Below are positions 1,560 to 63,694 of a stretch of 64,000 bases of DNA, one piece after another. Each line of letters starts with the position of its first letter. Position 1 is the first letter of the stretch. Position numbers and translations under genes: made by a program. The notes beneath the pieces were generated by a model. It had not been told where the DNA came from. It saw only the letters and a list, made by a program, of their open reading frames with translations, and did not search any database. The stretch lies in assembly GCA_013178015.1 (NCBI GenBank), contig JABLXR010000009.1:1-64000 (forward strand). Reading direction: 5' to 3'. The DNA comes from Anaerolineae bacterium. GTDB lineage: Bacteria > Chloroflexota > Anaerolineae > DRVO01.

Positions 1560-3044
1560 ATGGCAGACCGACCCAACGTGCTCCTCATCATGACCGACCA
1601 GCAGCAGTGGCAGACCATCGCCGGAAGGAGCCCCGCCAGAGCGCCCAACGTCCAGCGCCTGGTCGATGGGGGTATCCTCTTCGATCGGGCCTATACCCCC
1701 TGTGCCCTCTGCTGTCCCGCCCGAGCCATGCTCCTCTCCGGGGCCTACCACTGGCACAATGGTGTCTTCAACCAGGTGCACTCCTCGCCCTCCGTGCGCC
1801 GGGACATGTTCGGCGACGTAGTCACCTATCCCCAGCGCCTGAAACAAGCAGGCTACAGGCTGGGCCACGTGGGGAAGTGGCACGCAAGCCACGAGCGTGG
1901 TCCCATGCACTTCGGCTTCGACCATGTGGCTGGGCTCTCTCCCCACTTCGAGGCCATGGTCCGCCCGGGAGCCGTGGCATCGGAAGATCGCTGGGAGAAC
2001 CATCCTCGGCGGGACGAGGTGGTGGAGGTCTCGGCGCGCATGTTCCGATGGCCGGGCAGCCGGCCTTTCGCCATGTGGGCTTGCGTGGAGGGGCCGGAGG
2101 AGGCCACGCACATGGCCTTCATCGCTGGATGCGCCGAGCGTATGCTCGATCGCCTGGTGGGGCAGGGAGGACCGTGGCACCTGGAGGTCCACTTCCCTGA
2201 ACCCCACGACGCCTATCGCCCCCTCCGGAAGTACCTGGACCGGTACCCCTTGGAGGACATCCCCCTCCCGCCGTCCTTCTACGACACTTTCGAGGGCAAG
2301 CCGGGGATGCATCGGCGCGAGTCCCAGACCTGGGGTGAGGTGGACGAGGCCACGGTGAGGGAGGGCCTTGCCCACTACTTCGCCTGCTGCGAGCAGTTGG
2401 ACGCCCAGGTCGGGAGGGTGCTAGACCGCCTGGACGCTCTGGGACAGGCCCAGGACACGCTGGTCATCTTCTGCACCGACCACGGCGATATGGTGGGGGC
2501 GCACCGGATGTGGATCAAGGGCTGGATCCCTTACGAGGAGTGCTACCGCATCCCACTGGTCATCCGCTGGCCGGGACGGATCGCGCCCGGCTCCGTGTCT
2601 CCCAGGCTAGTGCAGCTGCATGACATCGCACACACGCTGACCGACGCGCTGGGGCTAACGCCGTTGCCCTACCAGGACGGCCGCTCTCTGCTGCCGCTGT
2701 TCCAGTCTCCCGAAAGGGAGGATTGGGAGGACGAGGTGCTCTGTGCCTGCTACGGAGGCGAGTTCCTCTACACCCAGCGCATGGTGATCACGGACCGGTA
2801 CAAGTACGTGTTCAACGGGTTCGACTTCGACGAGCTGTACGACCTGGAGGCCGACCCGCACGAGATGCACAACGTCGTCGAGGATCAGGCCTACGCCGGC
2901 GTGGCCGAGGATATGCGGGATCGGATGTACCGCCTGATGAACCGGTTTGGCGACCCGTATGGGGACGACACGGAAGCCTACACCGGTGGTGGAGAGAGGC
3001 CGAACCGATACGGGGCGCCGCGGTATCTGATGCGTGACACGTGA
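1560..3044 (+). CDS. sulfatase (type I, Cys-type formylglycine)
   Basis: 494 residues. The N-terminus RPNVLLIMTDQQQ supplies the metal ligand D13. The sulfatase signature is C51-C52-P53-A54-R55, where C51 fits the Cys converted to formylglycine (family motif CxPSR/CxPAR). GKWH at 105-108 and TDHGD at 306-310 complete the active-site set. There is no signal peptide, so a cytoplasmic enzyme, or export by another route, is implied. It probably removes sulfate from a carbohydrate or choline-like ester; the substrate is unknown. AGGAG at 1546-1550 precedes the ATG. The last residues (MRDT) and the stop codon are encoded inside a heptameric repeat that begins at 3031. A phosphonate monoesterase is the main alternative family assignment. 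Confidence 0.88.
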   Translation: MADRPNVLLIMTDQQQWQTIAGRSPARAPNVQRLVDGGILFDRAYTPCALCCPARAMLLSGAYHWHNGVFNQVHSSPSVRRDMFGDVVTYPQRLKQAGYRLGHVGKWHASHERGPMHFGFDHVAGLSPHFEAMVRPGAVASEDRWENHPRRDEVVEVSARMFRWPGSRPFAMWACVEGPEEATHMAFIAGCAERMLDRLVGQGGPWHLEVHFPEPHDAYRPLRKYLDRYPLEDIPLPPSFYDTFEGKPGMHRRESQTWGEVDEATVREGLAHYFACCEQLDAQVGRVLDRLDALGQAQDTLVIFCTDHGDMVGAHRMWIKGWIPYEECYRIPLVIRWPGRIAPGSVSPRLVQLHDIAHTLTDALGLTPLPYQDGRSLLPLFQSPEREDWEDEVLCACYGGEFLYTQRMVITDRYKYVFNGFDFDELYDLEADPHEMHNVVEDQAYAGVAEDMRDRMYRLMNRFGDPYGDDTEAYTGGGERPNRYGAPRYLMRDT

Positions 3045-3134
3045 TGCGTGACACGTGACGCGTGCCCCCTGAGGCATGAGACTTGTCACATATCACGCGT
3101 CACGTATCACGTATCACGCATCACGTATCACGAG
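3031..3134. repeat. heptameric inverted repeat element, copy 1
   Basis: The left arm is five tandem 7-mers of type (T/C)(G/A)CGTGA from 3031 to 3065. The right arm is seven tandem 7-mers of type TCACGTA/TCACGCG/TCACGCA from 3086 to 3134. The arms are complementary, so the 20-base middle would be the loop of a long hairpin. The sulfatase stop codon (3042-3044) lies in the second heptad, and the Shine-Dalgarno sequence of the next gene starts right after the last heptad. It may act as a transcription terminator. Related elements occur at 44623-44748 and 63569-63694. Confidence 0.85.
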
Positions 3135-3146
3135 CGGGAGGTGCGA

Positions 3147-5375
3147 ATGAATCAGCGGGCCGGTGCCGTGCCATCCGATCATCGTGCCGCCGACCTCGAG
3201 ACGTTGCGGGAGCGGGCCCTGCCGCCCATGATCTTTCTGTACGGGGCCTCGGCGGCGGTGGGTGCGTGGGCCTATCTGCCTGGCGCGGAGTTCCGCTGGA
3301 GACCGTTCGCAGTGCTGCTGGCGGCTACCCTCGGGTGCCTCCTGGCCTGGTGGGTCTGCCGCAGGAACTTGAGGGCGGGAACGGTGGCGCTGGTGGTGGC
3401 GGCCTACCTGTTGGCGGGGCTGGCGGCGCTTTGGCTACCCGGGCCAGTGGTGACGGCGGTGCTGGCTCTGTCGGTGGCGGCCAGCGCCAGCCTCTTCGTC
3501 CCTTGGGCCCCCATCGCCGCTGCAGCCGGGGCGGCAGGCAGCCACCTGGCCCTGCACCTCTTTCTGGTTCCCGATCCCGGTTTCCCCGTGGCCGCCGGCC
3601 TGTACGCTCTCCTGGGTGGGGCCCTGGCCGCCACGCTGAACGCCTCGCATCAGACCCTGACCTGGTCCTGGCAGCGCCACGACGAGGCCCGCCGTCTGGC
3701 CGATCAGCTGAGGGACCGGCAAGGCCAGCTCAACCGCACCATCAAGGCCCTGGACCTGGCCTACCGGCTGCTCCAGCGCACAAACCACGAGCTGTCTGTC
3801 GCCCGCGAGGAGGCGGAGGAAGCCCGGCACCTGAAGGAGCAGTTCGCTGCCAACATCAGCCACGAGCTCCGGACGCCGCTGAACCTGATACTAGGCTTCA
3901 GCGAGATGATGTACCTGTCGCCCCACGTCTACGGTGAGATGGAATGGAGCCCCTCCCTGCGGCGGGATGTAGCTCAGGTGTATACGGCCAGCCGTCACCT
4001 GTCTCAGCTGGTGGACGACGTGCTGGACCTGTCCCGGCTGAACGCGGAGCGGATGCCCCTGCGCAAGGAGCTGTGCGACGTAAACCAGATCCTGCGGGAG
4101 GTGGCCGACACCGCGGGCAACCTGGCGCGCGGCCGGCCCCTGGCGCTGGTGCTGGACCTGGCTGAGGACGTACCCCGGCTGCTGCTCGACCGCACCCGGA
4201 TGCGGCAGGTGTTCCTGAACCTGGTGAACAACGCCATCCGCTTCACCGAGCGAGGCGAGGTGAGGGTGGTCTCCCGGAGGACCGAAGAGGAAGTCCTGGT
4301 GTCGGTGGAGGACACTGGGGTGGGCATACCGGAGGAGGAGCTGGAGCGGATCTTCGATGAGTTCTACCAGGCCGGCTCTGCTGCTGCCAGAGCGGAGGCC
4401 GGCATGGGACTGGGACTGGCCATAAGCAGACGGTTCACGCAACTTCACGGCGGTAGGGTGTGGGCCGAGAGCACTATGGGGGTGGGGTCGCGCTTTCACG
4501 TCTCGCTCCCCCTGAAGACGGACGGGCCGCGCACTTCCCGACTGCGGGTCTCGCGGCCCCTACCGACCCCCGATAATCCTTACGAGGACGGCGTGCTGGT
4601 GTTGGGAGGAGGCCCGGATGCTGCCGGCCTGTTGCGCCGTCATCTCGAAGGGCACGAGGTCTGGGGGGTGGATGGATCCTCGGGCGTGGCCGATGAGGTG
4701 GAGGAGCATCATCCTCGGGCCGCCATCGCCCCACTCTCGCTGGCAGCTACGCGGCGACTGGTGAACGAGCTGGTGCCCCGCGACCTTCCCGCCGACGTCC
4801 CGCTGTTGTTCGCGGCGGTGCCCAACACCGCCTGGCGGGCGGAGTTGCTCGGGGTGCATGCCTGCCTGCAGAAGCCCATCCAGGCCGAGGACCTGATCGG
4901 CGTCCTGGCGACGCTGCCGCGGGCGCAGCGAGTGCTGGTGGTGGATGACGACAGGGGATTCGTGCAGATGGTGACCCGTATGCTGGAGACTGCGGAGCAG
5001 CGCTACGCGGTCAGCTGGGCCTACAGCGGGGCCGAGGGCCTGGAGGAGATGCGGCGCCACCGGCCGGACGTGGTAGTGCTGGACTTACTCATGCCGGGGG
5101 AGGACGGCAAAGCGGTCCTGGCGGCCATGCGCGCCGACGCCGACTTGTGCCAGATCCCGGTGGTGCTGGTCACAGCCATGGATGTGGAGGAGGACCTGGG
5201 CGGGCCGGCGGTGGGCCTGGTGGGGATGGTCCAGCGAGGACGGTGGGGTGTGGGTGACACTCTGGCAGCACTGAACCGTCTCCTAGTACTGGCCAAGCCG
5301 CGCTATGTCACCGCGAGTGACTCGACGGCAGGCATGCCAGTGACTGCAGAGCCGTCAGAAGCGCCGCCCGGCTGA
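3147..5375 (+). CDS. membrane hybrid histidine kinase with two C-terminal receiver-like domains
   Basis: 742 residues from ATG 3147, chosen for GGGAGG at 3136-3141. About six hydrophobic segments span residues 28-166, followed by a coiled coil (180-235). The kinase core has the H-box NISHELRTPLN with H239, the N-box around N358-N362, DTGVGIP at 389-395 and GMGLGL at 419-424. A receiver-like domain (about 480-590) keeps a Lys-Pro (CLQKPI) but has no acidic pocket or phosphoacceptor Asp. A second receiver (595 onward) has VVDDD and the acceptor D646 (VLDLLMP) but no clear conserved Lys. It senses an unknown signal through the membrane region. The 3' end overlaps the convergent response regulator gene by 68 nt, and the two probably act together. 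Confidence 0.9.
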   Translation: MNQRAGAVPSDHRAADLETLRERALPPMIFLYGASAAVGAWAYLPGAEFRWRPFAVLLAATLGCLLAWWVCRRNLRAGTVALVVAAYLLAGLAALWLPGPVVTAVLALSVAASASLFVPWAPIAAAAGAAGSHLALHLFLVPDPGFPVAAGLYALLGGALAATLNASHQTLTWSWQRHDEARRLADQLRDRQGQLNRTIKALDLAYRLLQRTNHELSVAREEAEEARHLKEQFAANISHELRTPLNLILGFSEMMYLSPHVYGEMEWSPSLRRDVAQVYTASRHLSQLVDDVLDLSRLNAERMPLRKELCDVNQILREVADTAGNLARGRPLALVLDLAEDVPRLLLDRTRMRQVFLNLVNNAIRFTERGEVRVVSRRTEEEVLVSVEDTGVGIPEEELERIFDEFYQAGSAAARAEAGMGLGLAISRRFTQLHGGRVWAESTMGVGSRFHVSLPLKTDGPRTSRLRVSRPLPTPDNPYEDGVLVLGGGPDAAGLLRRHLEGHEVWGVDGSSGVADEVEEHHPRAAIAPLSLAATRRLVNELVPRDLPADVPLLFAAVPNTAWRAELLGVHACLQKPIQAEDLIGVLATLPRAQRVLVVDDDRGFVQMVTRMLETAEQRYAVSWAYSGAEGLEEMRRHRPDVVVLDLLMPGEDGKAVLAAMRADADLCQIPVVLVTAMDVEEDLGGPAVGLVGMVQRGRWGVGDTLAALNRLLVLAKPRYVTASDSTAGMPVTAEPSEAPPG

Positions 5376-63568: not shown

Positions 63569-63694
63569 TGATACGTGACAAGCGACACATGACCCGTCAT
63601 AGGCGACATACGATACGTGGTGTCGCACGCATCACGCATCACGTATCACTCTTCACGCATCACGTATCACTCTTCACGCGTCACGTGTCAATCA
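63569..63694. repeat. heptameric inverted repeat element, copy 3
   Basis: The left part is seven degenerate 7-mers from 63569 (TGATACG, TGACAAG, CGACACA and so on). The right part is nine 7-mers from 63632 to 63694 (TCACGCA, TCACGTA, TCACTCT, repeated). The right arm shares exact heptads with element 1. The purD stop codon (63690-63688, minus) lies at the edge, in the heptad TCAATCA, and the element fills the leader between purD and purM. Confidence 0.85.

Follow-up and report, generated by a model that had tools for sequence, protein, structure and literature searches.

A hairpin of heptads at the end of a sulfatase gene

The window analysed here is a stretch of 64,000 nucleotides from an Anaerolineae bacterium (contig JABLXR010000009.1, positions 1 to 64,000). 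Near its start, a gene for a sulfatase (PF00884, SGSH_C; positions 1560 to 3044, plus strand) is followed on the same strand by a gene for a hybrid histidine kinase with a response-regulator domain (3147 to 5375). The junction is occupied by a left arm of CGTGANN heptads (3026 to 3065, plus strand), a 20-nt spacer (3066 to 3085, no strand) and a right arm of inverted TCACGNN heptads (3086 to 3132, plus strand), with the units in strict 7-bp phase. Perfect cores lie at 3033, 3040, 3047 and 3054 in the left arm, which also has a degenerate outer unit (TCTGA, 3026) and a degenerate inner unit (CGTGC, 3061), and at 3093, 3100, 3107, 3114, 3121 and 3128 in the right arm, where the unit at 3086 is degenerate (TCACA). 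The spacer, which forms the loop and contains no ORF, bears no sequence resemblance to the loops of other copies. Over 37 to 40 nt the arms are 83 to 86% complementary to each other, and the RNA fold of the element on either strand is far more stable than that of shuffled sequences (z about -5). The sulfatase gene ends CTG ATG CGT GAC ACG TGA (L-M-R-D-T-stop); the heptads supply the stop codon (TGA, 3042 to 3044, plus strand, in the third heptad of the left arm) along with the four residues that precede it. The ribosome-binding site (RBS) and start of the kinase gene (3136 to 3149, plus strand) come directly after the element, the RBS (GGGAGG, 3136 to 3141) beginning 4 nt past the right arm and the ATG lying at 3147. 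An earlier note on this DNA, made from its letters alone, had described phased and mutually complementary heptads that are not derived from coding sequence, a sulfatase stop codon and four terminal residues made by the repeat, and a kinase ribosome site right after it. These observations are borne out, and the hairpin stands with its limits corrected from 3031-3134 to about 3026-3132.

This element is the sole strong lag-7 array of the window, in which no comparable arrays of period 4 to 6 or 8 to 12 were found. A second, decayed copy (63574 to 63685, no strand) has a right arm of 8 units (63632 to 63685), 2 of which read TCACTCT, and a degenerate left arm that is nearly gone.

Copies at gene ends in the genome, genus and class

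A genome-wide search with the heptad pattern, as the earlier note had proposed, revealed many copies: TCACGNNTCACGNNTCACG has 185 matches in the 4.57-Mb genome as compared to 0 for the reversed control, and the heptad family is therefore not a product of chance. By a hand tally, 31 elements in 812 kb of DNA, mostly regions picked for TCACGNNTCACGNNTCACG matches, carry about 158 of the 185 matches, which leads to an estimate of roughly 35 to 40 elements in this genome. Their arms comprise 3 to 9 units and their loops 11 to 47 nt, and the loop sequences are mutually unrelated except in one local pair. The commonest unit is CGTGA+TR, the variable dinucleotides are TA, TG, CA or CG, and the order is always CGTGA-loop-TCACG. 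When the two arms were aligned from the inside, the variable dinucleotides matched in 24 of 80 cases (0.30, as compared to 0.315 in shuffled pairings), a repeat analysis agreed, and reliable pairing is thus confined to the invariant 5-nt core. The expectation that the arms covary as complementary pairs consequently fails at the variable positions; as judged from these alignments, each arm turns over on its own while the core stays paired throughout. In other genomes covariation was weak or reached significance in just a single mixed set, and it was negative in genome G198, where the left units (AA-type) and right units (CA-type) differ systematically. Unit order common to both arms was slightly above chance (p 0.005 to 0.035), hinting at copying in a way that is too weak to build on.

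Genes were called with an in-house codon-model caller. Despite 86% of the sequence being coding, no element lies inside a gene; 10 lie in convergent gaps, 17 in co-directional gaps and 1 in a divergent gap. Per intergenic bases, divergent gaps are depleted (p 0.002) and convergent gaps enriched (p 0.0004). CGTGA arms are faced by 34 gene ends, and every one of these terminates between -25 and +30 bp from its arm, so placement relative to genes is non-random, as the earlier note had supposed. The stop codon is in heptad phase at 27 of these 34 ends and is TGA at 30 of them, as compared to about half of all genes. Since 7 mod 3 = 1, three successive heptads offer TGA in all three frames, and the fixed polarity of the element turns the TGA-bearing CGTGA side toward both neighbours. 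Exceptions are G198 and part of G277, in which hairpins occur away from stop codons.

The earlier note had also envisaged terminator activity. An intrinsic terminator, a GC-rich hairpin followed by a U-tract, is rejected since neither a U-tract nor a terminator-like site was found at the elements; moreover, in typical co-directional gaps the next RBS follows 14 to 25 nt downstream. Searches of Rfam returned only sub-threshold microRNA-precursor look-alikes, that is, "a hairpin".

Within the genus, the element is present in a second genome (G001) at an orthologous convergent site (L152/L209) with flanks 77.6% identical; the stop codon and the core are kept, the dinucleotides and the loop differ, and the G001 copy has fewer units. 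At two further orthologous sites G001 lacks the element. At the first (L155), the convergent genes nearly touch in G001, whereas in the genome studied here the element supplies both stop codons; at the second (L172), 44 bp in G001 stand in place of about 180. The sulfatase of the relative ends ..ARYLPR-stop without heptads, as compared to ..PRYLMRDT-stop in the window, and synteny is lost downstream there. These comparisons suggest that the element comes and goes at individual sites in this genus, with the direction of change not polarised, so that the empty sites could be losses. No clear target-site duplication was seen at the TCACG copies at the identity of about 75% between the two genomes.

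Among 298 genomes of the same class, CGTGA-loop-TCACG pairs occur at 1856 places in 79 genomes, and the reversed control of this search gave 0 matches in the same 298 genomes. The opposite order, TCACG-loop-CGTGA, is 48 times rarer (39 places in 15 of the 298). One genome of the set (G011) matches "Thermoflexia bacterium J88" without a difference over 4.6 kb (L223 = L101), which suggests that the class is Anaerolineae in a broad sense (Chloroflexota). Further named matches come from Desulfococcaceae, Verrucomicrobia, Bacteroidetes, Oscillochloris, and Gammaproteobacteria, and only nine exact four-unit matches were found among 2.9 million viral contigs.

Several variants of the pattern were seen along the way. 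In G198 (L331 to L349), the heptad hairpin is one module of a dispersed mosaic repeat of about 250 bp, the copies of which are about 80% alike and which also has CAGTAAT heptads among its modules. In G277, copies are short and have several loop families. A metagenome-assembled genome of Oscillochloris (L049, L053, L089) carries CGTGATNN arrays that reach about 35 units and stand opposite a short TCACG arm, and the loop between those arms, TCGGTCAGnnTGCGnCCCGG, is conserved. In G056, G134, G171, G199, and G247, reversed control patterns matched AGTGCNN...GCACTNN or GCACTNN heptads, another family with inverted pairs. Other class members have degenerate period-7 arrays with the cores GAGGGCA and CAGTNNN (L254, 6935 to 7021; L258, 18350 to 18402).

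Four-helix-bundle genes between heptad arms

At locus L157 of the same genome, a gene for a four-helix-bundle protein lies between two complete TCACG hairpins. The protein matches PF05635, the "23S rRNA-intervening sequence protein" family (S23, 23S_rRNA_IVP), with an E value of 5.7e-13, and TIGR02436 with 2.7e-16. Six four-helix-bundle genes were present among all loci examined, and in five cases arrays of TCACG or related heptads flank the gene: one in the genome studied here (L157), two in Thermoflexia J88 (L227, L231), one in Verrucomicrobiales (L068), and one in Bacteroidetes (L062). In L157, L227, and L068 the gene stands between arms of window-type heptads, the Verrucomicrobiales locus reading 27 CGTGA units, gene, and 6 TCACG units. 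The Bacteroidetes locus has the order hairpin-gene-hairpin; that one TCACG-type arrangement is of this kind and not a gene in a loop counts against the explanation favoured below. The sixth gene (L157:16641-17042) lies between inverted arrays built from a different heptad (CAGGTTA.. / ..TAACCTG). A second heptad family of this genome (AGGTTAC / AGGGGAC) is found at L187 (16333 to 16379), L184 (4511 to 4552), and L157 (16560 to 17060), the last being an inverted AGGTTAC-family pair that encloses this sixth gene. No relatives of the four-helix-bundle protein were found in viral contigs or phages. A link with S23 genes lies beyond what the window sequence could show the earlier reader.

It should be noted that five of the loci with these six genes had been picked for TCACG heptads, and an unbiased test that starts from the protein only was therefore needed. 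The sixth protein was used as a tblastn query against plasmids, and in 16 matches arrays of period 7 or 8, with a lag identity of 70% or more across 28 nt, were sought up to 160 bp from the gene. Such an array accompanied 15 of the 16 plasmid S23 genes as compared to 9 of 91 controls, which were other genes on only three of those plasmids (Fisher p 2.5e-11), and with the same controls arrays stood on both sides of 8 of the 16 genes as compared to 0 of 91. The arms are inverted rather than direct in 14 of the 16 loci; direct arms occur at L382 and L386. The units vary by site (TAGGGAG, CAGGTGA, GTCAGGA, AAAAGGG, and GGACAGA, among others), some are 8- or 9-mers, and the upstream arm is usually purine-rich. 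Most of nine further plasmid matches agree, one having 9-mers and one no array. In a cyanobacterial-plasmid subgroup (L394, L396, L397, L398), the genes adjoin tyrosine recombinases and have 8- or 9-mer arms, with no heptads.

Sites occupied by plasmid S23 genes include those between nrdB and nrdA, cas6 and cas4, and cas10 and cmr3, the elements inside cas operons (cas6-cas4, cas10-cmr3) being at L371, L378, and L382. A screen for CRISPR association lists 23S rRNA IVP proteins (PMC10910872), and the repeat arrays of S23 genes together with insertions into cas operons could explain that link.

One plasmid case resolves the insertion to the base. In Trichormus plasmid C, a four-helix-bundle gene lies between two conserved plasmid genes, and it is absent at that site in Tolypothrix PCC 7712 and five other listed records, with flanks 97 to 98% identical. 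The Trichormus insert (arm, gene, and arm) measures 423 bp and is accompanied by a 5-bp duplication, GTAAT, which spans the stop codon of the upstream gene. The empty Tolypothrix site contains no heptads, and the inserted arms pair at both ends of the element. In the Scytonema copy of the same insertion, the left arm is shorter by exactly 14 bp, or two heptads. These comparisons indicate that arms and gene arrive together and that the arms then change by whole units; insertion of a gene into a pre-existing heptad hairpin is ruled out for this case by the same empty site. In Calothrix, the span from nrdB to nrdA is about 480 bp shorter. Anabaena 90 and Dolichospermum were considered as a second empty-site pair and rejected, as the difference is not a clean insertion. 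The Trichormus/Tolypothrix comparison is thus the only one in which an arm-gene-arm insertion with a target-site duplication was found.

Known systems, competing explanations and implications

The closest parallel is the intervening sequence (IVS) of 23S rRNA. That of Coxiella burnetii has terminal inverted repeats that form an RNase III-cut stem, and tandem GACAGAT heptamers precede its S23 ORF (PMC4990558). As in an IVS, terminal inverted repeats of the window element form a long, stable stem; in the proposed complete form an S23 ORF would lie inside, with heptamers beside it, and the distribution is patchy. Unlike IVSs, the elements described here sit between protein genes, mostly at stop codons, and not in a 16S or 23S rRNA helix (helices 9, 25, and 45 in 23S rRNA); their arms consist wholly of heptads, and the window copy lacks the ORF.

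The earlier note held the arrangement to be no named element, but inverted pairs of heptamer arrays near stop codons were already known from Xanthomonas, where 70 and 75 pairs of GGGAATC arrays were described (Rehm 2015, PMC4692102). Those pairs likewise consist of tandem 7-mers, are intergenic and present in many copies, and place opposite arrays of fixed polarity next to stops. Additionally, Xanthomonas campestris encodes a four-helix-bundle protein, XCC0516 (PDB 2GSC), which the protein of this study matches at 9.8e-23. Compared to the GGGAATC / GGGGAYT repeats of Xanthomonas and Nostoc, the unit here is different and offers a stop codon in every frame, and since CGTGANN / TCACGNN lack G-runs, G-quadruplexes cannot be the general reason for such arrays. 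TAACTGA repeats of Beggiatoaceae also provide stops in all three frames (PMC4679880); they share with the present elements intergenic heptads, overlap with upstream gene ends, and occurrence in unrelated phyla, but TAACTGA arrays are direct, lie ahead of start codons, and are almost never inverted. REP/BIME elements and RAYT-mobilised REPINs are likewise short, intergenic, non-autonomous palindromes in many copies, whereas the elements here have a heptad structure and no GTAG/CGTC tag. A RAYT/Y1 transposase was rejected as the motor: the genome has a single Y1_Tnp gene (C21:22580-22912), with the nearest element about 12 kb away. As for MITEs, the loops are unrelated and target-site duplications are not clear at about 75% identity. 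PF05635 resembles Avd of diversity-generating retroelements (PMC10053308), which belongs to the same protein superfamily (NF033474 match, 4e-7), but no reverse transcriptase or variable repeat lies beside the elements inspected.

We regard it as probable that the window copy represents, in gene-less ("solo") form, a small IVS-like insertion element that is linked to a four-helix-bundle protein and resides between protein genes. The complete form would consist of a heptad array, a four-helix-bundle gene (S23 / 23S_rRNA_IVP, PF05635), and an inverted heptad array, and would insert at or beside stop codons. The protein may recognise the arms and move gene-less copies in trans; RNase III would cleave the hairpin in the transcript, as it does in rRNA IVSs, so that the mRNA would be processed at little cost; and unit number would shift through slippage by whole heptads. 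Two bodies of evidence bear on this proposal. For a relative with other heptads, comparison of occupied and empty sites shows that the unit, arms included, arrives whole with a 5-bp target-site duplication. For the CGTGA/TCACG family itself, the alignments establish polarity, location at gene 3' ends, three-frame stops, presence and absence in one genus, and a few four-helix-bundle genes between arms. We infer that solo copies of the TCACG type also spread in this way, in trans. Against the proposal stand the hairpins away from stop codons in G198 and part of G277, the direct arms at L382 and L386, the units of 8 or 9 nt, and the TCACG copies themselves, for which no mobilisation was seen, the two empty sites being unpolarised and target-site duplications unclear; the association with four-helix-bundle genes, moreover, draws on six genes in loci mostly picked for heptads and on plasmid controls from three plasmids.

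A less likely explanation, to which we nonetheless give some weight, is that these are ordinary heptameric SSRs: slippage makes the arrays, hairpin-templated copying inverts them, they survive only at gene 3' ends since the TGA-bearing arm ends any frame harmlessly, and four-helix-bundle genes simply favour sites of this kind. Bacteria contain heptamers in excess, which has been attributed to polymerase slippage (PMC4692102), and both the change of unit number by whole heptads and the missing arm covariation fit this account. However, an identical unit at dozens of unlinked sites with strict polarity needs a step of dispersal or selection, and the base-precise empty site without any heptads means that the arms came with the gene. 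We consider it improbable that the element is a selected 3'-end RNA hairpin (a bidirectional terminator, an attenuator, or a protector of mRNA 3' ends) whose long stem is conveniently assembled from heptads. The very stable fold on both strands, the 3'-end location, and the preference for convergent gaps speak for it, but the lack of a U-tract, the closeness of the next RBS in co-directional gaps, the absence of arm covariation, and the absence of the element from orthologous gene ends argue against it, and hairpin stability does not explain polarity. It is very improbable that the arrays are sites to which a DNA- or RNA-binding regulator attaches, with seven bases per unit in two orientations: the TCACG core is fixed while two positions vary among YR, and the core was retained at L152/L209 where the rest was replaced, but divergent (promoter) gaps are avoided, no common neighbour function is evident, and other genomes use other units.

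On the favoured reading of a solo, four-helix-bundle-linked element, a broader and more tentative picture can be drawn, which we consider less likely than not. Tiny insertion elements with arms of 7- to 9-nt repeats and an S23/Avd-like four-helix-bundle protein as their sole gene may be widespread in bacteria, inserting at stop codons without a known transposase and possibly moving via the processed hairpin RNA; rRNA IVSs would be a special case, and the cyanobacterial, Xanthomonas, and Anaerolineae heptamers would be gene-less offspring. In the openly available papers examined, no link between the PF05635 family and heptad arrays in general was found. Heptamer repeats have so far been explained only by slippage and, for some, by G-quadruplexes, and no role has been known for the S23/four-helix-bundle family. 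Should they prove connected, a single set of experiments could put both puzzles to the test. Many genes annotated as "four helix bundle protein" would then gain a context, transposase-free insertion at gene ends would need explaining, and S23 genes in cas operons would acquire another reading.
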